Source: Blastocatellia bacterium (GTDB taxonomy: Bacteria; Acidobacteriota; Blastocatellia; UBA7656; JADIYM01). Taken from it: a stretch of 39,702 nucleotides of DNA. Made by a program: the position numbers and the translations under genes. The notes under the pieces are model-generated. The model was not told the origin of the DNA. It searched no databases and saw nothing but the letters and a program-made list of their open reading frames with translations. The stretch is from assembly GCA_021463145.1 (NCBI GenBank), contig JAJTWZ010000038.1:1-39702 (forward strand), in the 5' to 3' direction. Positions 13,480 through 23,741 of this stretch are shown piece after piece. The stretch's first letter is position 1, and every line of letters begins with the position of its first letter.

Positions 13480-14739
13480 CTATTGCCCGCGATACTCCAG
13501 CCGTTTCGGAACAGGCGTCTCCTTCTGAAGCCGTGACGCGACGACCTCGCACTCCCGCATCACCCGCAACAGGTTTTCCCCGAGGATCTTCCTCACGTCC
13601 GCGTCCGAGTATCCGCGCTTCACGAGCTCGTAGGTTAGATTCGGCAGTTCGCTCGTGTCCGCCAGTCCTTCCGGCAGGCTGATGCCCCCGTCGAAGTCCG
13701 ACCCGAGCCCGACGTGGTCGATCCCGGCGACCTTCACCGCGTGGTCGATGTGGTCGACCAGCACCGACAGCGGCGTGCGGGGAATGTGCGTCCGTTCGAA
13801 CTCCTCGTATGCCCGATATAGCGCCAGGTCGTCGCCCTTGTACTTCTCCTGAATGGCATCGAGTTCGGGCCTGTACTTGATCGATGCGTCGACCCGCCGC
13901 TGATCGATGAACGTCTCGTAGAAGTTGATCTGGATTACACCGCCGTTGCGCGCAAGCGCGCGAAGCATGTCGTCGTCGATGTTCCGCGTGTGGCTGCACA
14001 GGGCCCGGCAGGACGAGTGCGACAGGATGACCGGCGCCTTGCTGACTTCGAGCGCATCGTAAAAAGTCTCGTCCGCCACGTGCGACAGGTCGACCATCAT
14101 TCCGATCCGGTTCATCTCGCGCACGACTTCGCGGCCAAAATCGTTTAGCCCGCCCCAGCGCTTCACGTCCGGCACCTTCGCGCCGAAGCTGCCCGAGCTG
14201 TCGGCCCAGTTGTTCGTATTCGTGTGGGTGAGCGTCATGTAACGCACGCCAAGCCTGTAAAACTCGCGCAGTGCAAACAGGGAGTCTTCGATCGCGTGTC
14301 CGCCTTCGATGCCCATCAGCGCCGCGATCTTGCCCTTCTTCGTGATGCGGCGAATATCGGCAACGGTGAAAGCCATCTCGAGCGATTCCGGATGGCGGGC
14401 GACCTGCTCGTAGACGATGTCGATCATATCGAGCGCGCGCCGTGCCGATCCGCCTTTCTGTGCGAATGACTTGTCGACATAGATCGCGAAGAACTCGGCG
14501 TCGAGCCCGCCTTCCTTCATTCGGGGAATGTCCGTATGCCCGTCTTTGCTTCGCGCGCCCATGTCGAAGTCGTCGTCGACAATTCGCGAGGTCACGTCGT
14601 TGTGTGTGTCGACGACCATTGCGGCGGCGTGCAGCCGTGCCGCCCGTTTCCAGAGGGCCGGATCACGTGCCGGCGTCTGGGCGCCCGCGTATGGGCAGAG
14701 AAAGGCGATCAGCAGTGCGACGAGCGAGATTCGTTTCAT
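13480..14739 (-). CDS. exported membrane dipeptidase, peptidase family M19
   Basis: A 419-residue zinc dipeptidase of the renal dipeptidase (M19) family, which cleaves dipeptides, often with a D-residue, outside the cytoplasm. Residues 1-20 are a signal peptide ending AGA. The binuclear zinc site is complete by eye: D-T-H46-N-D48 near the N-terminus, the bridging Glu in M-G-I-E-G-G-H, then MVDLSHVADETF and PVILSHSSCRALCSHTRN with the later His ligands. V-G-L-G-S-D-F-D-G-G near residue 340 is also typical. The length matches exported bacterial homologues. The start at 14739 has no Shine-Dalgarno, but TATAGT lies six bases upstream, so translation may be leaderless. Confidence 0.9.
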   Translation of the reverse strand: MKRISLVALLIAFLCPYAGAQTPARDPALWKRAARLHAAAMVVDTHNDVTSRIVDDDFDMGARSKDGHTDIPRMKEGGLDAEFFAIYVDKSFAQKGGSARRALDMIDIVYEQVARHPESLEMAFTVADIRRITKKGKIAALMGIEGGHAIEDSLFALREFYRLGVRYMTLTHTNTNNWADSSGSFGAKVPDVKRWGGLNDFGREVVREMNRIGMMVDLSHVADETFYDALEVSKAPVILSHSSCRALCSHTRNIDDDMLRALARNGGVIQINFYETFIDQRRVDASIKYRPELDAIQEKYKGDDLALYRAYEEFERTHIPRTPLSVLVDHIDHAVKVAGIDHVGLGSDFDGGISLPEGLADTSELPNLTYELVKRGYSDADVRKILGENLLRVMRECEVVASRLQKETPVPKRLEYRGQ

Positions 14740-14751: not shown

Positions 14752-14917
14752 CGTCTACCGGATGTCAGATCAGAACCTGCAGCCGAAGCGGCCCGATTTG
14801 CCCGGAGAATCGGCGCCTCCCGCCGCCCATCCCGATCCTGAAGCCATCTGGTGCGAAACCTTTCACGAACGTGTACCGTAGTGCCCCATCACTCTGCTTC
14901 AAGAGGAGCCACTCACA

Positions 14918-16513
14918 ATGAATGTAGGATTCGCCAGGAAGGCCTGCGTGCTCGTGTGCTCGCTCGACGTCTGGGCGATAACTGGCGCCAGAATCGTCCC
15001 GGTCTCTGGACCTCCGATCGAAAAGGGAACGATCGTCGTTCGAGACGGTTTGATCGAATCGGTTGGCGCCGCGACTGTCGCTCCGGCCGACGCCAGGTTG
15101 ATCGATGGAGCCGGGCTGACCGTGTACCCCGGTCTTATCGACTCGTTTGCGTTCGTCGAGCCGGAGACGAAACCCGACGGGCCGCCGCAGGGCCAGCCAC
15201 GCGCTCCCGACCGTGAGAACCCTCCGGGCGTTACGCCGCAACGCGAGGCCATCGACCTGGTGAAGAACGACGCACGGATGGAGGGACTCCGTGCCGCCGG
15301 ATTCACGTCGATGCTGGCAGTTCCGAAAGGCGGTGTGTTCCGCGGGCAGAGCGTTCTGGTGAACACTTCGGGTGCAAGCGGCTGGGCGATGACGGTGAAG
15401 TCGCCGGTAGCGATGCACCTCTCGTTCGAGCCGCAAGGCGGTTTCGCCCAGTATCCCGGCTCTCTGATGGGCGTGTTCTCGGTGATCCGTCAGAAAATGC
15501 TCGACGCCACACAGTACCGGCAGCTTCGCGAGCAGTACGCCTCTTCGCCGGCCGGGCTGCGTCGGCCCACTTTCAGCCGCGAGTACGAGTCGCTCATCCC
15601 GATTCTCGACCGCTCGCTTCCAATCTCGTTCGAAGCAAATCGCGACCGTGAGATCGCCAGGGCGATCAAGCTCGTGGACGAGTTCCGGCTCTCGGGAACG
15701 ATCGCCGGCGGGCGTGAAGCCTGGAAGGTCGCGGCCGATCTCGAGTCGCGAAGAATCCCAGTGCTTCTCTCTCTGAATTTTCCGGAGGCGCCTATGGACC
15801 TCGATCCTGAAACGCGAGAGGAATTGAAGGACGTTCGCGATCGGCTGGAGGCGCCCGCCTGTGCTGCGAAGCTGGCAAAGGCCGGAGTCAGATTTGCCTT
15901 TCAATCAGGCGGTATCCGGTCACCGAAACAGATGCTGACAAACGCGGCAAAGGCCATAAAGGCCGGTTTGCCCGCCGACGCCGCGCTTCGGGCTCTTACG
16001 CTATCGCCCGCCGAAATTTTCGGCGTCTCGAATCAGCTCGGATCGCTCGAGCCCGGCAAGATCGCAAACCTGGTAGTGACCAGCGGCGATCTGTTCGACG
16101 AGAAGACCAAGGTTCGCTTCACCTTCGTCGATGGCGAACGTTTCGAGTACAAGGACGAGCCGGCGCCGATGCCGGCCGAGTCTGCCGCCGTCGACGTCAC
16201 CGGCACGTGGGAGATCGAGGTCACCACGCCCGACGGTCCTCAGAAAGCGACGCTCGAGATGACGCAGAAAGGAAACAGCGTCACTGGAATGTTCCGTACG
16301 GAGATGTTCGGATCGAGCGAGGTGAAATCCGCGTTCGTGTCGGGCAAGAAGCTCACGGTCAACGTGATGCTAAACATCGGCGGCAATCCGCTGGACATCA
16401 CGTTCGCGGGCGACGTTGAAGGCGACACGATGAAGGGCACGTCGAGTGTGGCTGGCCAGGGCTCGATGAGTTTTACGGGAGCGCGAAAACCAAAAGGGGG
16501 CAAGCTTCGATGA
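14918..16513 (+). CDS. amidohydrolase-like protein lacking metal ligands (pseudoenzyme?)
   Basis: A 531-residue protein with the amidohydrolase fold of imidazolonepropionase-like enzymes: a composite beta sandwich (ITGARIVPVSG...KGTIVVRDGLIESVG), then the barrel, then the sandwich return G-S-L-E-P-G-K-I-A-N-L-V-V-T near residue 375. The usual metal motif after PGLID (H-x-H) reads S-F-A-F here. The later barrel His and Asp positions (PISFEANRD, FQSGG) are also replaced, so hydrolysis is unlikely. Residues about 425-531 form an extra beta-rich module (DVTGTWEIEV...LEMTQKGNSVTGMF), lipocalin-like in pattern. The N-terminus has a hydrophobic run of only about seven residues (CVLVCSL) and no cleavage site. 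AAGAGGAG precedes the ATG. The stop overlaps the next start (ATGA). Confidence 0.8.
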   Translation: MNVGFARKACVLVCSLDVWAITGARIVPVSGPPIEKGTIVVRDGLIESVGAATVAPADARLIDGAGLTVYPGLIDSFAFVEPETKPDGPPQGQPRAPDRENPPGVTPQREAIDLVKNDARMEGLRAAGFTSMLAVPKGGVFRGQSVLVNTSGASGWAMTVKSPVAMHLSFEPQGGFAQYPGSLMGVFSVIRQKMLDATQYRQLREQYASSPAGLRRPTFSREYESLIPILDRSLPISFEANRDREIARAIKLVDEFRLSGTIAGGREAWKVAADLESRRIPVLLSLNFPEAPMDLDPETREELKDVRDRLEAPACAAKLAKAGVRFAFQSGGIRSPKQMLTNAAKAIKAGLPADAALRALTLSPAEIFGVSNQLGSLEPGKIANLVVTSGDLFDEKTKVRFTFVDGERFEYKDEPAPMPAESAAVDVTGTWEIEVTTPDGPQKATLEMTQKGNSVTGMFRTEMFGSSEVKSAFVSGKKLTVNVMLNIGGNPLDITFAGDVEGDTMKGTSSVAGQGSMSFTGARKPKGGKLR

Positions 16514-17955
16514 TCAGATTACGACCACTCCGAGCAGGACTTCGGTTACGTGCGAACTCGATCGTCGCCGTCGCCGCGCTTGCCGCGCTTGCGGCTCCCG
16601 CGCTTGCCCAGAAGCCTGCTTCGCGCGAGATCCTGATCCGTAACGCCACGGTGATGACGGTGACCAAAGGAGTCATCGAGAACGGCTCCGTGTTGATACG
16701 CGACGGCAAGATTGCCGATGTCGGGACAAGCGTGAAGGCCTCTGCCGATGCGACTGTGATCGACGCCGCCGGCAAGTTCGTCACGCCCGGCGTCATCGAT
16801 TGCCACTCGCACATCGCGGTCGACGGCAGTGTTAACGAAGGTTCGTTTTCGGTCACGTCGATGGTGCGCATTGCCGACGTGATCGATTCGTCTGACAGTG
16901 GAATCGTCATCGGGCTGAGCGGCGGCGTGACGATGGCGAACGTGTTGCACGGCTCGGCGAACGCGATCGGCGGTCAGAATGCAGTGATCAAGATGAAGCC
17001 GAACCGTCCGGCCGGCGAGTTGATCTACGGGAATGCGCCTCCGGGCATCAAGTTCGCGCTCGGCGAGAATCCGAAGCGGTCGAACTTCCAGGCGAACCCC
17101 GCACGCTACCCGCGCACGCGAATGGGGGTAGAGAACGTCATCCGCGATGCATTCACTCGAGCGCGCGACTACCGCGAGGTATGGGCGCGCTACAACGCCG
17201 ACGTGAAGGCCGGCAAGAAGCGGGTTGCCGTCCCGCGGCGCGACCTGGAGCTCGAGCCCCTCGTCGAGGTGCTCGAGGGCAAGCGGCTGGTCCATTCGCA
17301 TTGCTACCGCGCCGACGAGATCCTGATGCTCATTCGGGTTGCCCGTGACTTCAATTTCCGGATCGCGACGTTTCAACACGTGCTCGAGGGCTACAAGGTC
17401 GCTCCCGAGATCCTGGCATCCGGCGCGGGGGCTTCCACCTTTCAGGACTTCGGCGGATACAAGATCGAAGCGTTCGATGCCACTCCCTACAACACGGCGA
17501 TGCTATGGAAGGCGGGCATTCTCGTGTCCCTGAATTCCGATGATGGCGAGCGGCAGCGCCGGCTCAATACCGATGCTGCGCGTGCCGTGCGTTATGGAGG
17601 CGTTCCGGAGGACGAAGCGCTGAAGATGATCACGATCAATCCGGCGAAGCAGCTCGGGATCGATCGCTGGGTCGGCTCGCTCGAGAGGGGAAAGGACGCC
17701 GACGTCGTGATCTGGTCGGCGCATCCACTCAGCTCTTACGCGGTCGCCGAGAAGGTCTACGTCGACGGTAATCTCGAGTTCGACCGCGCGGTTGCAATTC
17801 GGGATGCCGAGGCGCGACGTGCCGAATCGAAGCGGCTGGTCGAGCAGGAAAAGGCCGACAAGAGCGCGAAGCCGAACCCTGACGCTCCTAGGACGGCGCC
17901 GGCTCCGAGGCACGGGCTTCACCACGACGACGCTTGCGAAGGAGGTGGAGAATGA
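16510..17955 (+). CDS. exported amidohydrolase with intact metal site
   Basis: A 481-residue exported amidohydrolase of the imidazolonepropionase-like group. Residues 1-33 are a signal peptide (ALAALAAPALAQ). The metal-binding motif is intact: P-G-V-I-D-C-H99-S-H101. Further likely ligands are His in LVHSHCYRAD near residue 260, His in ATFQHVLEGYK near 290, and Asp in VSLNSDDGERQ near 340. It returns to the beta sandwich at G-S-L-E-R-G-K-D-A-D-V-V-I-W near 395. The C-terminal 60 residues are charged and end with a short His-rich stretch (HGLHHDD). It overlaps both neighbours by four bases, so it is translationally coupled to two degenerate relatives. The substrate is unknown; exported members often act on peptides or cyclic amides. 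Confidence 0.85.
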   Translation: MIRLRPLRAGLRLRANSIVAVAALAALAAPALAQKPASREILIRNATVMTVTKGVIENGSVLIRDGKIADVGTSVKASADATVIDAAGKFVTPGVIDCHSHIAVDGSVNEGSFSVTSMVRIADVIDSSDSGIVIGLSGGVTMANVLHGSANAIGGQNAVIKMKPNRPAGELIYGNAPPGIKFALGENPKRSNFQANPARYPRTRMGVENVIRDAFTRARDYREVWARYNADVKAGKKRVAVPRRDLELEPLVEVLEGKRLVHSHCYRADEILMLIRVARDFNFRIATFQHVLEGYKVAPEILASGAGASTFQDFGGYKIEAFDATPYNTAMLWKAGILVSLNSDDGERQRRLNTDAARAVRYGGVPEDEALKMITINPAKQLGIDRWVGSLERGKDADVVIWSAHPLSSYAVAEKVYVDGNLEFDRAVAIRDAEARRAESKRLVEQEKADKSAKPNPDAPRTAPAPRHGLHHDDACEGGGE

Positions 17956-19307
17956 AACGCAGGATGTCCGTTCGTGTCGCGGCGGTATGCCCTCTGGCAC
18001 TGCTGGCGCTTCCATTGCTTGGCACGGCTGCTTTGGGATCCGGGCCGGCTGCTGCGGAGTCGTACGTAATCGAGAACGCCCGACTTGTGACGGTCTCGGG
18101 ACCGGCGATCGAAAAGGGCTCGATCGTAATCGTCGATGGCAAGATCGCCGCAGTCGGAGCGACGGTGACAGCTCCGGCTGGCGCGAAGCGCATCGACGGC
18201 ACGGGCTTGTCCGTCTATCCGGGGATGATCGACGCGGCGTCGCGCCTTGGACTCGTGGAGGTCGGATCTATCGCGGCGACCAACGATGCTTCCGAGATTG
18301 GAGACATCAAGCCGCAGCTTCGTGCGTTCGAGAGTTTCAATCCGGCGAACGAGTTCATTCCGATGGCTCGCATTAACGGCATCACGACAGCGGTTTCTAC
18401 TCCGGGTGGGGGACTGATTGCGGGTCAGGTGGTTGTCGCGGATCTCGACGGCTACTCGATCGAACAGATGGCGATCCGTCCGTCGGCCGCCATGGCGCTC
18501 AGCTTTCCGTCCGGGGTCGGTGGAGAGTCGTTCGACTTTGCTACGTTCTCCGTCAAGCGGTCTTCGGATTCGGATGCGCGAAAGGCGCGTGAGAAGAGAC
18601 TTGACGATCTTGCCGGGCTGTTCGACCGGGCGCGTTCCTACGCTAAGGCCGTGAAGGCGCGGGCGTCGGACCCCACGTTGCCGCCGCTTGAGGAGGACCT
18701 CGGTCTCGCGGCTCTGGAGCCCGTGCTCTCCGGTCAGCTGCCGCTTTTCGTGGCTGCCAACGACTTTCGCGACGTGAAGCGCGCCGTCGAGTTCTGCGAG
18801 AAACAGAACGTCAAAATGATCCTGCGGTCCGACGCGAGTTTCGGGCCGTTCGACCTTGCAGCGGTAGCGTCGTTCCTCAAGGAGAAGAAGATCGCGGTGA
18901 TCTTTGGACCGATGTACACGCTGCCTTCCGACGAGGACGACAGGTACGACATGCCCCAGCAGGCGCCAGGAGCATTGGCAAGGGCCGGCGTGCCATTCGC
19001 TTTCGCCTCCGAAGACTCCGCAATGGCCAAGGACTTGCCGTATCAGGCGGCGATGGCCGTTGCATACGGAGGATTGTCGAAGGACGATGCCATTCGGGCG
19101 CTGACGCTCTGGCCAGCGACGATCTGGGGCGTGGCCGACCGGATCGGATCGCTGGAAGTGGGCAAGCAGGCGAACCTGTTCGTTACGAACGGAGATCCAC
19201 TCGAGCCGAGGACGGACGTGAAGTATCTGTTCATCCGAGGGCGTAATATCCCGCTCGTGAGCCGGCAGACGCAGCTGTACGATGCGTACAAATCTCGGGT
19301 CCCGTAG
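17952..19307 (+). CDS. exported amidohydrolase-like protein lacking metal ligands
   Basis: A 451-residue exported amidohydrolase-fold protein. I chose the ATG at 17952 because AAGGAGGTGG lies just upstream and it gives an ATGA overlap with the previous gene. Residues 1-36 form a signal peptide ending PAAAE. The fold is evident from IENARLVTVSGPAIEKGSIV, YPGMID and the late GSLEVGKQANLFVTNGDP. The position of the usual H-x-H after PGMID reads A96-S-R98. Other ligand positions are also lost (FVAAND, FASEDSA). It closely parallels the 14918-16513 protein in sequence but has a normal signal peptide and lacks the C-terminal beta module. Most likely a non-catalytic partner of the middle enzyme. Confidence 0.8.
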   Translation: MKRRMSVRVAAVCPLALLALPLLGTAALGSGPAAAESYVIENARLVTVSGPAIEKGSIVIVDGKIAAVGATVTAPAGAKRIDGTGLSVYPGMIDAASRLGLVEVGSIAATNDASEIGDIKPQLRAFESFNPANEFIPMARINGITTAVSTPGGGLIAGQVVVADLDGYSIEQMAIRPSAAMALSFPSGVGGESFDFATFSVKRSSDSDARKAREKRLDDLAGLFDRARSYAKAVKARASDPTLPPLEEDLGLAALEPVLSGQLPLFVAANDFRDVKRAVEFCEKQNVKMILRSDASFGPFDLAAVASFLKEKKIAVIFGPMYTLPSDEDDRYDMPQQAPGALARAGVPFAFASEDSAMAKDLPYQAAMAVAYGGLSKDDAIRALTLWPATIWGVADRIGSLEVGKQANLFVTNGDPLEPRTDVKYLFIRGRNIPLVSRQTQLYDAYKSRVP

Positions 19308-19460: not shown

Positions 19461-21890
19461 ATGACGGGACAGACGGTTCTTCACTACAAGATCGGTAACC
19501 GGCTCGGCGCGGGCGCAATGGGCGAGGTGTACCGCGCCACGGATACCAAGCTGAATCGGGACGTGGCGGTGAAGTTTCTGCCGTCGTCGTTTCACTACGA
19601 CACTGGCCGTCGCGCGCGTTTCCTGCGCGAGGCCCAGGCCGCGTCTGCGCTCCGTTCGCCGAACATCGCCCACATCTACGACATTGGCGAGGCCGACGAC
19701 GCTTTCTTCATCGTTATGGAGCTTGTCGATGGCGAGGCGCTCTCGGAGCGGATACGCAGAGGCCCGCTCCCGGTTCGCGATGCCGTCGACTTCGCGGCGC
19801 AGATCGCCGACGCCCTCGACGAAGCGGCCGGACGTTGCATCGTCCATCGCGACATCAAGAGTTCGAACGTGATGGTCACGCCGCGCGGACTGGTCAAGGT
19901 CCTCGATTTTGGACTTGCCAAGGTGATCGCGCCCGACGACAGCGGCGGCGTAGCGATGGCGCCCACGCTTCTCCTGCCCGCCCTGGAGACGACGCCGGGA
20001 GCGATCGTCGGCACGGTCAACTACATGTCGCCGGAAGCGGCGCTCGGCAAGCCGGTCGATACGCGCTCCGATCTGTTCTCTCTAGGCGTGGTGCTCTACG
20101 AGATGCTTGCCGGCGTTCTGCCATTCGAGTCGCCATCTCCGACCGAAACGATCGACAGGATCGTTCACAACGATCCTCCTCAGGTCTCGCGGACGAATCG
20201 CGACGTCGGGCCGGAACTCGAGCAGATCCTGCGAAAGGCGCTGGCGAAAAGTCCTGACTACCGCTATCAGACGGCGCGAGATCTTTACATCGATCTTCAC
20301 GAGTGCCTGCGGAACGTAAACGACTCCGCCCCGACAGCCATTCTGCGCCCGTTCGACCGCGCGATAGCGCCGGCCTCGACGAGCAGGCAACTTGCGACCG
20401 CGTTTGCGCCCGCGCCGCGCGTGCCGAACGCAGTGGCGGTGATGACGTTCGCGAACATCACCAAGGAACCGGCGGACGCGTGGATTGGCGCGGGCATTGC
20501 GGAGACGGTGACGGCGGATCTGAAGAACGTTCAGGGATTGAGGGTGATGGGGCGCGAACGGGTCTTCGACTCGCTCAAGACGCTCGGATCCGCCGACGGT
20601 ATCGAGTCCGACGAGTTGCTGGCCATCGAAGTCGGCCGTTTTCTCGGTGCTACGTGGATCATCGGCGGGGGGTTCCAGCGCATCGGCGACGTCATCCGCA
20701 TCACGGCGCGATTCCTCGAGGTGTCGACGGGAGCGCTGTCGCGGTCGGTGAAGATCGATGGAAGTATCGGCGAGATATTCGACCTTCAGGATCGGATCGT
20801 CTACGAATTGATGAAGGGTCTGAACCTCGAGCTTGCCGACGACGAGATCCTGGAGATCGAACGGGACGAGACGCAGTCGGTCGACGCTTACGAGTGCTAC
20901 TCGCGTGGAATGATGAACCTGCGCTCCGCGACGCCGGAGTCACTCGACCGGGCGGTGTTCCTGCTTTCGAAGGCGACGGAGTACGATCCGGAATACGCGT
21001 CGGCGTGGGCCGCGCTGGGCGCGGCGCACGACCTGAAGGCATCGTTCCAGAGCCTGACGGACCTCGCTTACACCGCGATCGAATGCGAAAAGAGGGCGAT
21101 CGGTCTCAATCCGCGGCTTGCTCGCGCGTGGGACTGGCTGGCTGGCGCGTACCTCACGGTGGCGATGTCCGACGAGGCCATCGAGGCCGCGCAGCGCGCG
21201 ATCGACCTGGATCCGAATCTGTCGTCGGCGCGGCAGTCGCTGGGCCGGGCGTACTGGCTGGGCAAGGGAATGATCGCGGAGGCCATCGCGGAGTTCGAGC
21301 GCGTCGTGCAACTCGAGCCACGATCCGGCTACACGCTGTTGCAACTCGGGTTGCTCTACACGTTCGAGGGCGACTACGCAAAGGCCGAGGCCATGTGCCG
21401 CCGGGCGATAGATCTGCAGGAGCGGCACATCTCCGGAAAGGTCGGCCTTCTCATCGTCGGCGCGCGGACAAGACTTGGCTACGTGTACTACTGCGGGCGC
21501 CGCTACGACGACGCGATCCGCGAGTACGAGCTCGAGCTGGATTTTCTGTCGTCGACTGCGCACGCGCTCAAAGAGAGGGCTCTCATCGAGCTTCACCAGA
21601 AACTTGGCGCCGCCAATCACAGGCTCGGGAACGTCGAAGCAGCCGAGGCGCATTTCGAGCAGGCTGTGACATTATTCGAATCTCGCGTGGCGATCGGCGC
21701 GGACGACCCTTCGACCAGGTACTACATCGCGTGCCTCTGGGCGCTTCGCGGCAATGCGGTGAGGGCCGCCGAGCACCTCGAGAATTCGATGCGGACTCTG
21801 AAGGTCATAAGCCGGATCCGCGCGCAGTTCGATCCAGACTTCGACCAGATCAGGGACGACGAGGTATTCGCGGCGCTGATGCGCGACTGA
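19461..21890 (+). CDS. soluble Ser/Thr protein kinase with TolB-like region and TPRs
   Basis: An 809-residue Hanks-type kinase. Residues 10-290 hold the kinase domain: glycine loop G-A-G-A-M-G, VAVK38, catalytic H129-R-D131-I-K-S-S-N, DFG at 149-151, G-T-V-N-Y-M-S-P-E in the activation segment, and RSDLFSLGVVLYEML. After a linker rich in Ala/Pro, residues about 315-455 resemble the TolB N-terminal/adenylate-cyclase-associated module (VAVMTFANIT, LRVMGRERV, GATWIIGGGFQRIGDVIRITARFLE). About 480-800 hold tetratricopeptide-like helices (A-S-A-W-A-A-L-G-A-A-H-D, Y-T-F-E-G-D-Y-A-K-A-E-A-M). There is no transmembrane helix, so the protein is cytoplasmic. Target unknown. Its stop is six bases from the convergent SCO stop. 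Confidence 0.9.
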   Translation: MTGQTVLHYKIGNRLGAGAMGEVYRATDTKLNRDVAVKFLPSSFHYDTGRRARFLREAQAASALRSPNIAHIYDIGEADDAFFIVMELVDGEALSERIRRGPLPVRDAVDFAAQIADALDEAAGRCIVHRDIKSSNVMVTPRGLVKVLDFGLAKVIAPDDSGGVAMAPTLLLPALETTPGAIVGTVNYMSPEAALGKPVDTRSDLFSLGVVLYEMLAGVLPFESPSPTETIDRIVHNDPPQVSRTNRDVGPELEQILRKALAKSPDYRYQTARDLYIDLHECLRNVNDSAPTAILRPFDRAIAPASTSRQLATAFAPAPRVPNAVAVMTFANITKEPADAWIGAGIAETVTADLKNVQGLRVMGRERVFDSLKTLGSADGIESDELLAIEVGRFLGATWIIGGGFQRIGDVIRITARFLEVSTGALSRSVKIDGSIGEIFDLQDRIVYELMKGLNLELADDEILEIERDETQSVDAYECYSRGMMNLRSATPESLDRAVFLLSKATEYDPEYASAWAALGAAHDLKASFQSLTDLAYTAIECEKRAIGLNPRLARAWDWLAGAYLTVAMSDEAIEAAQRAIDLDPNLSSARQSLGRAYWLGKGMIAEAIAEFERVVQLEPRSGYTLLQLGLLYTFEGDYAKAEAMCRRAIDLQERHISGKVGLLIVGARTRLGYVYYCGRRYDDAIREYELELDFLSSTAHALKERALIELHQKLGAANHRLGNVEAAEAHFEQAVTLFESRVAIGADDPSTRYYIACLWALRGNAVRAAEHLENSMRTLKVISRIRAQFDPDFDQIRDDEVFAALMRD

Positions 21891-21896
21891 CCTGAA

Positions 21897-22784
21897 TCAC
21901 TTCAAAGTCGAGCGCAGGTCTTCGACAACGGTTGCCACCTTCCATTCGTTGCCGCGGTAGACCTTCACGAGTGTCCCGTCCGGTCCTACGATCGCCGTTC
22001 GCAACGAGTGGACGATCTGGCCGTCCTCTTTTCCGTAGACCAGTCCATAGGCTTCGGCGACCTTGCGAATGGTGGCTGGATCGGACGTCGCGAAATCCCA
22101 GTTCTCCGGCACCTTGCCATCGATCGTCGCGACTTCGCTGGCGTGAGCATTCAGGACTCCAGGAGTGTCGAATTCGGGGTCGATCGTTATGCTCACGAGC
22201 CTCACACGGCTGGCGAACCTCGGGTCACCCAGCAGCAATCGGTCGATTTCGGCGAACCGCTCGGTCATCAGCGGACAGTAGTCGGGCAGGGGACAGCGGG
22301 AAAAAATGAAAGTCACCAGGACGGCGGAGCCCTTCAGGGATTGGAGCGATATCGGCTTGTAACGATGTGTAGTGAGAGAGAAGGGAGGCGCTGCCTCGCC
22401 GGGAACCGGTTCGGTGGCGCCGTCGATCATGCTCGGCGCGCCGGCCGGACCGGGCACCGGCGTCACTACGACGTTCTCGAGCCAGGTGGCTTTGCCTTCG
22501 ACAATCAGGTTTGCGCTGATGCGGCAGCCTGGCGTGGCGGCCTGGAACACCCAGTCGTCCTTGACGCGAAACGGCATCGTCATCGGAGGCATGTAACCGG
22601 GAACGTCGCCGTGATCGACTGTAAGCCGCCCGCGTTCGGCGTCCACCGACACCACGCGGCCTTCGAGTGGATACGACTGGCGAGGCGCCGATTCGCCACA
22701 TCCGGCGACTGGCAGGGAGGCGGAAAGAAGAAGCGCCACCAGAGCCGGGCGACAGATCCTTCGAAACGTGGGCAGACCGGTCAC
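21897..22784 (-). CDS. lipoprotein with CusF-like copper domain fused to SCO domain
   Basis: A 295-residue predicted lipoprotein starting at GTG 22784; the lipobox is L-P-V-A-G-C29. Residues about 38-108 match the CusF-type copper-binding beta barrel (D-H58-G-D-V-P-G-Y-M-P-P-M68-T-M70-P-F). Residues about 130-295 are a SCO1/SenC thioredoxin fold, which delivers copper to cytochrome oxidase. The copper cysteines are spaced C164-PLPDY-C170, a C-x5-C variant of the usual C-x3-C; the distal His is in G-Q-I-V-H-S-L-R-T. It lies apart from the oxidase operon, which has its own SCO gene, so it may handle copper delivery under other conditions or for another oxidase. It is divergent from the 22893 gene. 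Confidence 0.85.
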   Translation of the reverse strand: MTGLPTFRRICRPALVALLLSASLPVAGCGESAPRQSYPLEGRVVSVDAERGRLTVDHGDVPGYMPPMTMPFRVKDDWVFQAATPGCRISANLIVEGKATWLENVVVTPVPGPAGAPSMIDGATEPVPGEAAPPFSLTTHRYKPISLQSLKGSAVLVTFIFSRCPLPDYCPLMTERFAEIDRLLLGDPRFASRVRLVSITIDPEFDTPGVLNAHASEVATIDGKVPENWDFATSDPATIRKVAEAYGLVYGKEDGQIVHSLRTAIVGPDGTLVKVYRGNEWKVATVVEDLRSTLK

Positions 22785-22792
22785 GCGAATGG

Positions 22793-22801
22793 AGTGTAGC
22801 A
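22793..22801 (-). promoter_or_regulatory. extended -10 of the CusF-SCO gene
   Basis: On the minus strand TGC-TACACT (22801-22793) is followed after eight bases by the GTG at 22784. The mRNA would be nearly or fully leaderless. Confidence 0.35.
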
Positions 22802-22833
22802 AGCCGATCGCCGGAATAGCACATCGGGAATGA

Positions 22834-22861
22834 TTGAATTGCCATTCCTGTTTGCTAGGAT
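22834..22861 (+). promoter_or_regulatory. promoter of the 2OG oxygenase gene
   Basis: TTGAAT (22834-22839), 16 bases, then TAGGAT (22856-22861) preceded by TGC (extended -10). The start would be near 22868, leaving a 25-base leader with AAGGAG before the ATG. Confidence 0.5.
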
Positions 22862-22892
22862 TCGCCGCATCGGCAAGCAGCAAGGAGCGCGC

Positions 22893-23741
22893 ATGGTACT
22901 GCAGGTTGATTTCACTTCCGACGAAGCGCCGGAACGATTGGCGCAGTCGATTCGCGAGACTGGATTCGCGGTGATTACGGAGCATCCGATTCCGTGGGAG
23001 CTCGTCGCGTCGACGTACGAAGAGTGGGCGAGCTTTTTCGCGAGTGAAGTCAAGCACGCGTATCCGTTCCAGGAGGCGGTCGAGGGGCAGTGGGGCTACT
23101 TCCCGTTCAGATCCGAGAATGCGAAGGACAGCGGTCTCAAGGACCTCAAGGAGTTCTACCACGTCTACAAGTGGGCGCCGCTTCCGGCGGGCGTGTCGGA
23201 GAACACGCGCGCGCTGCACTCCGAACTGGAGCGGCTCGCCGGAACGATACTGGGCTGGATCGAAGACAACACGCCGCCGGGTATCCGCACCGGGTTCAGC
23301 GAGCCGCTTCGTGAAATGATCGAAGGCAGCCAGCGGACGCTCTTCAGGATTCTGCATTACCCGCCGATCGTCGAGGACGCCGAGCCCGGCGCCGTGCGTT
23401 CGGCCGCACACGAAGACATCAACCTGCTCACGCTGCTTCCAGCGGGCACGGCGCCGGGGCTGCAGGTGCTCGACACGTCGGGTTCCTGGCACGAGGTCGC
23501 CTGCGATCCGGCGGCGATCATCGTGAACGCCGGGGACATGCTCCAGATGGCAAGCGGGGGGTTCTATCGATCGACGACGCACCGTGTGGTGAATCCCGTG
23601 GGGGATGCATCGCGTGAGCCGCGATACTCGATGCCGCTCTTCCTGCATCCGAGGCCCGAAGTGCGGCTGTCTTCCAGTCACACTGCCGGGACGTATCTGG
23701 ACGAACGATTGCGGGAGATTGGACTCAAGACGGCGGATTGA
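22893..23741 (+). CDS. 2-oxoglutarate/Fe(II)-dependent oxygenase, isopenicillin N synthase-like
   Basis: A 282-residue cytoplasmic non-heme iron oxygenase of the isopenicillin N synthase-like (DIOX) family, which couples 2-oxoglutarate decarboxylation to oxidation of a substrate. The facial triad is visible as A-H-E-D in RSAAHEDINLLTLL (His and Asp) and the distal His in RSTTHRVVNP. The Arg-x-Ser that binds 2-oxoglutarate is in EPRYSMPLFLHP. The N-terminal part (ETGFAVITEHPIP, WASFFASE) is the usual DIOX_N segment. The ATG at 22893 has AAGGAG five bases upstream; an earlier ATG at 22830 lies upstream of the promoter. The substrate is unknown; relatives act on amino acids, ethylene precursors or secondary metabolites. 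Confidence 0.85.
   Translation: MVLQVDFTSDEAPERLAQSIRETGFAVITEHPIPWELVASTYEEWASFFASEVKHAYPFQEAVEGQWGYFPFRSENAKDSGLKDLKEFYHVYKWAPLPAGVSENTRALHSELERLAGTILGWIEDNTPPGIRTGFSEPLREMIEGSQRTLFRILHYPPIVEDAEPGAVRSAAHEDINLLTLLPAGTAPGLQVLDTSGSWHEVACDPAAIIVNAGDMLQMASGGFYRSTTHRVVNPVGDASREPRYSMPLFLHPRPEVRLSSSHTAGTYLDERLREIGLKTAD

Follow-up and report, generated by a model that had tools for sequence, protein, structure and literature searches.

A conserved amidohydrolase-fold trio with a single intact metal site as a candidate exported heteromeric enzyme

What do two amidohydrolase-fold proteins do when they lack the metal site of their family and are encoded on either side of a paralogue that retains it? 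Such a set, genes A, B and C, lies in the 39,702-nucleotide stretch of a Blastocatellia bacterium contig analysed here (JAJTWZ010000038.1; the window). A and C are annotated simply as amidohydrolases, though they would be unable to use the metal chemistry of the family. A sequence-only reading of the window had described three amidohydrolase-fold genes joined by ATGA overlaps; its coordinates and open reading frames proved correct, and both junctions are ATGA.

About 14902-14908, forward strand: ribosome-binding site AGAGGAG of gene A
14918-16513, forward strand: gene A, exported amidohydrolase-fold protein of 531 amino acids, without metal ligands and with a C-terminal beta module (open reading frame, Pfam, alignment)
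16510-16513, forward strand: ATGA overlap of A and B, with the B start ATG at 16510 and the A stop TGA at 16511-16513
16510-17955, forward strand: gene B, exported amidohydrolase of 481 amino acids with the full ligand set, presumed catalytic subunit
17940-17949, forward strand: ribosome-binding site AGGAGGTGGA of gene C, located within B
17952-17955, forward strand: ATGA overlap of B and C, with the C start ATG at 17952 and the B stop TGA at 17953-17955
17952-19307, forward strand: gene C, exported amidohydrolase-fold protein without metal ligands (open reading frame, Pfam, alignment)

A start of C at the TTG at 17934 is unlikely, since the ATG at 17952 is the one preceded by AGGAGGTGGA. All three window proteins score above the cut-off of PF01979 (Amidohydro_1; A with 46 bits), although for A and C the match covers only the C-terminal part of the barrel. 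In pairwise comparison, A and C are 34% identical to each other and 26-27% identical to B.

Only the middle protein keeps the metal ligands

Among solved structures, the closest in sequence to all three proteins is 3ooq (B 224, A 119 and C 120 bits), which we take to be the Thermotoga maritima locus TM0814. Alignment with 3ooq was used to map the six ligand positions.

15146-15154, forward strand: degenerate H-x-H position F77-A78-F79 of A (3ooq alignment)
16804-16812, forward strand: H99-S100-H101 of B, the first two metal ligands, invariant in 156 B proteins
17065-17067, forward strand: ligand E186 of B, in the motif GENPKR, corresponding to E153 of 3ooq as numbered in the aligned fragment
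17299-17301, forward strand: ligand H264 of B (3ooq alignment)
17377-17379, forward strand: ligand H290 of B (3ooq alignment)
17539-17541, forward strand: ligand D344 of B (3ooq alignment)
18237-18245, forward strand: degenerate H-x-H position A102-S103-R104 of C (P0003 numbering; 3ooq alignment)

In the window, B retains six of six ligands (H99, H101, E186, H264, H290 and D344), as expected from the earlier proposal that only the middle protein, with H99-S-H101 and the later ligands, has a metal site. That proposal also held that the outer proteins have lost the H-x-H motif (F-A-F in A, A-S-R in C) together with the later ligands, and each indeed retains none of the six: the positions are occupied by F77, F79, P172, E239, G264 and G331 in A and by A102, R104, S193, A274, G304 and E360 in C. 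The pattern of a catalytic member (H-x-H, K/E, H, H, D) is present in B and missing from A and C. Judged by these residues, B should be a metal-dependent hydrolase.

The same division recurs beyond the window. B has all six ligands in 134 of 134 main-set loci and in 22 of 22 alphaproteobacterial loci (156/156). The 115 A proteins keep between zero and two of the six, and none has the full set; C keeps up to four in the 134 main-set loci and up to two in the 22 alphaproteobacterial pairs, with 0/156 complete. Because the pattern recurs in independent genomes, a sequencing artefact was dropped as an explanation. A search of the 3ooq mapping for metal ligands at alternative positions in A or C returned none. 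Such ligands are unlikely, since five of the six ligand columns in A and C lie at the 84th-99th percentile of variability and conservation sits elsewhere; with no conserved polar set at the six positions, this explanation was also abandoned. The exception is the column of the fourth histidine, which is a near-fixed glycine in both A (101/115) and C (100/134).

A and C have near-invariant residues of their own: Q192 and D196 in A (each 114/115), and D118 (134/134), E121 and R146 (each 132/134) and E109 (131/134) in C. In A, the polar residues that are conserved, R191, Q192, D196 and E255, lie in or beside helices. The near-invariant acidic residues D118 and E121 of C (P0003 numbering) belong to the loop that follows the first strand of the barrel, and E121 aligns with a near-invariant glutamate of B, E110, and with E79 of 3ooq. 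An arginine common to A and C (position 125 in A, 146 in C) is a leucine in B.

Gene order and fusions across phyla

Loci were collected from Acidobacteriota and by a scan of 84,980 species genomes, and 22 alphaproteobacterial loci were added to the resulting 141, which span at least ten phyla. The records name Acidobacteriota, Gemmatimonadota, Krumholzibacteriota, Ignavibacteriota, Fimbriimonadales, Marinimicrobia, Planctomycetota, Verrucomicrobiota, Pseudomonadota, Bacteroidota and Eiseniibacteriota; many source genomes are metagenome bins, so individual taxon labels may be wrong. As homology to the trio was the basis on which loci were picked, the architecture counts are no random sample and describe the company that B keeps. 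With fused domains in brackets, the 141 loci include 67 [A-B]-C, 30 A-B-C and 13 A-[B-C]; rarer forms are B-C without A (19), [B-C]-A (4) and a single [A-B-C] chain of 1347-1388 amino acids (3; L068, L140 and L143). Genes overlap or lie within 60 bases of each other at 153 of 167 junctions. Gene order in relatives, a check suggested by the sequence-only reading, is thus kept across at least ten phyla, including Acidobacteriota and Gemmatimonadota. That reading had mentioned similar tandem pairs in related phyla, which understates the case: in Bacteroidota, Planctomycetota and others the trio is present as an A-B fusion with C. Genuine B-C pairs form another arrangement, probably older than the trio.

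B is also frequent within sampled groups, being found in 64 of 149 Acidobacteriota genomes (over 40%) and in more than half of the Bacteroidota genomes (115/198; with E values of up to 1e-60, some of these matches are more distant relatives). Among 398 Pseudomonadota genomes, 57 were matched by an alphaproteobacterial B query. A is not needed universally, because it is absent from pair-type loci and, in genome G025, lies on a different contig from B-C.

Two loci depart from these arrangements. One Acidobacteriota genome has five consecutive genes that read B-B-B-C-BC by best model, the last with two domains (L080; G006:C4:8000-22000), possibly a separate expansion. On a Hymenobacter volaticus plasmid (L181; NZ_CP095062.1), the A-B unit has its A part broken into three reading frames, with B and C still present; either decay or sequencing errors would account for this.

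Origin of the two outer proteins

In a tree of 100 domains, A forms one clade (support 100) and B another (99), with 3ooq just outside B. The C proteins of trio loci also form a single clade across phyla (99), adjoining A, and the C proteins of six two-gene loci (L083, L128, L087, L089, L093 and L098) form a series between this clade and 3ooq/B. Several C proteins of two-gene loci retain three or four ligands. A probably derives from C. The data leave the root unfixed; were the active side ancestral, the most economical course would run from an active enzyme to a B-C pair whose C gradually lost the site, and from C to A. Compared over 111 complete loci, pairwise identities within A, B and C correlate at 0.79-0.83; this would be expected of genes that move as a unit, though species phylogeny contributes.

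Export and predicted contacts

By a simple hydropathy test, a hydrophobic N-terminal segment is present in 44 of 45 unfused A, 42 of 47 B and 110 of 114 C proteins, and at the N-terminus of 62 of 67 A-B, 17 of 17 B-C and 3 of 3 three-way fused chains. B of Qipengyuania has a lipobox-like N-terminus. The proposal that all three window proteins are exported stands for B and C, which have ordinary Sec-type N-termini; the N-terminus of A in the window is short and atypical (MNVGFARKACVLVCSLDVWA), though unfused A proteins pass the test almost without exception.

Two natural fusions were modelled with AlphaFold2. An A-B fusion from Krumholzibacteriia (L110; 999 amino acids, 79 aligned sequences) gave a pLDDT of 88.9 and a pTM of 0.87, and a B-C fusion from Acidobacteria (L157; 890 amino acids, 32 aligned sequences of which five are fused) gave 86.6 and 0.86. 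If two equal barrels had no defined position relative to each other, the pTM would be expected to fall clearly lower. By these predictions, A would contact B and B would contact C, although the pTM of a single fused chain speaks to such contacts indirectly. Both halves of the A-B model have the amidohydrolase fold: the B half matches 3ooq with Z 45 (r.m.s.d. 2.0 Å, 38% identity over 368 residues; the next match has Z 26), and residues 20-423 of the A region match 4ub9 with Z 23.8.

16187-16510, forward strand: C-terminal module of A, residues 424-531, modelled as an eight-stranded beta barrel in a homologue and absent from some A proteins

This module bears out the suggestion that one subunit carries an extra beta module: it spans about residues 424-531 of A, and the A-B model has eight strands there, at 438-530. 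In the modelled fusion the module reaches 21.4 bits against the Pfam lipocalin-like family GH43_C, below its cut-off of 23.4; a Pfam search with the module of the window protein gave no match, and the matches in a fold search with the whole A-B model were filled by barrels. Because a number of A proteins lack the module, it is not essential to the system everywhere.

Neighbouring genes and substrate

Among about 140 main-set loci, no neighbour recurs in more than ten, and those that do recur are mixed. As no other neighbour recurs widely, the trio is self-contained. In the window it is flanked by an exported M19 membrane dipeptidase (13480-14739, reverse strand; PF01244, 389 bits), which we set aside as a substrate clue because it is divergently transcribed and is not among the recurring neighbours listed. 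Directly downstream lies a Ser/Thr protein kinase with TPR repeats (19461-21890, forward strand); the same cluster was seen near only four of the loci. A copper-related protein with CusF-type and SCO1/SenC domains in a single chain follows (about 21897-23000, reverse strand).

Family models did not assign a substrate. None of the NCBIfam equivalogs compared with B (imidazolonepropionase, N-acetylglucosamine-6-phosphate deacetylase (NagA), dihydroorotase and prolidase) came near its cut-off, the best among the matches listed being 77.6 bits against 391, with hutI at 65.7 against 298 and nagA at 60 against 226; assignment by this route was rejected. In 7 of the 22 alphaproteobacterial loci, the B-C pair has a POT-family peptide transporter (PF00854) immediately upstream, a link restricted to one lineage, the Erythrobacteraceae-type loci L182 and L215-L220. 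Three of these (L218, L219 and L220) differ in most of their other neighbours. In L182, and probably in three further loci, an FKBP-type prolyl isomerase comes after the pair. Because of the transporter beside the pair, a peptide-like substrate is favoured, a tentative assignment in which our confidence is low.

A proposed heteromeric enzyme and its alternatives

We consider it likely that A, B and C are subunits of one exported heteromeric metallohydrolase in which B is catalytic and A and C are fixed non-catalytic partners. A heteromeric periplasmic enzyme with non-catalytic subunits was what the sequence-only reading had put forward, and it gains support from the fusions in four arrangements, the co-diversification of the three proteins and the A-B and B-C fusion models. 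The ligand pattern, co-occurrence, gene order, fusions and trees can be read from the sequences themselves; the stoichiometry, the need of A and C for activity and the substrate class we infer. In the proposed enzyme, B, with the sole metal centre (H-x-H, E, H, H, D), would be the catalyst, most likely hydrolysing a small amide or peptide-like bond. The outer two, A and C, duplicates from the same ancestor that would have lost the metal site, may pack on B and stabilize it, and would probably shape or gate its active site.

Gene coupling and fusion are also compatible with co-regulated proteins that never touch. A and C could be ligand-binding proteins, serving for sensing, capture or delivery in one pathway with B, that use the emptied barrel pocket and form no permanent complex. 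Their pockets would then be free to change, and the ligand columns are highly variable, as if different lineages bind different things; all three proteins are exported, and the loop that follows barrel strand 1 in C holds the conserved acidic residues E109, D118 and E121. However, the four natural fusion arrangements and the confident relative placement in both models favour contact, and we regard this reading as improbable. Still less probable, in our judgement, is that A and C are enzymes with a metal-free mechanism, or with ligands elsewhere, that carry out successive steps with B. In its favour, the fold has been retained across phyla (median pairwise identity 33% for A and 38% for C), but the six ligand positions hold no conserved polar set, the fourth histidine is a near-fixed glycine in both proteins, and the conserved polar residues of A are placed in or beside helices.

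We give almost no credence to the view that these are simply tandem paralogues undergoing decay, which chance has grouped or co-transfer has preserved. Loss of the ligands and the split A part on the H. volaticus plasmid would fit that picture, but the same order, the invariants specific to each protein and a single-clade origin are found in at least ten phyla, and fusions would not be preserved among copies in decay. The idea that A and C are pseudogenes was also dropped.

If the preferred reading, a complex of A, B and C, is real, it would be a common envelope enzyme. It would also be a rare case in which active ancestor-type, half-decayed and fully dead partners can be compared, so that the passage from a homomer to a heteromer with pseudoenzyme subunits becomes directly testable. 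The fullest version of the proposal is doubtful as a whole: a widespread exported enzyme of Gram-negative bacteria with one live chain and two obligatory dead chains that complete or gate its site, a stepwise loss of the metal site preserved in present-day pair-type and trio-type loci, and a peptide-like substrate from the envelope or the environment.

Comparison with known systems

No description of the trio was found in the literature searched, nor any paper on 3ooq or on the substrate of TM0814. B resembles 3ooq in having the same ligand set and the common motifs GSAN-GGQ, GENPKR and TRMG, and the two group at a support of 100, with 3ooq outside the B clade; the 3ooq entry is one protein, whereas here there is a set of three. 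In Acetoanaerobium, a relative (L183) carries every ligand and lacks a signal peptide. Amidohydrolases of the prolidase and Lys/Arg carboxypeptidase type (3feq/3n2c, 3mkv and 3mtw) have the same fold and type of metal site. Such peptide-hydrolysing enzymes are among the structural matches of the A-B model, with Z of about 25, not above deaminases or triazine hydrolases; unlike the trio, they have a single active chain.

That a dead amidohydrolase chain can be a required subunit is already known in principle: in the aspartate transcarbamoylase (ATCase) of Pseudomonas aeruginosa, an inactive chain of the amidohydrolase superfamily, the pseudo-dihydroorotase pDHO, is a necessary structural subunit (PMC7053772). 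The active partner of pDHO is an unrelated transcarbamoylase and the assembly is cytosolic, whereas the active partner in the trio is a paralogue, the dead chains are two different ones, and all are exported.
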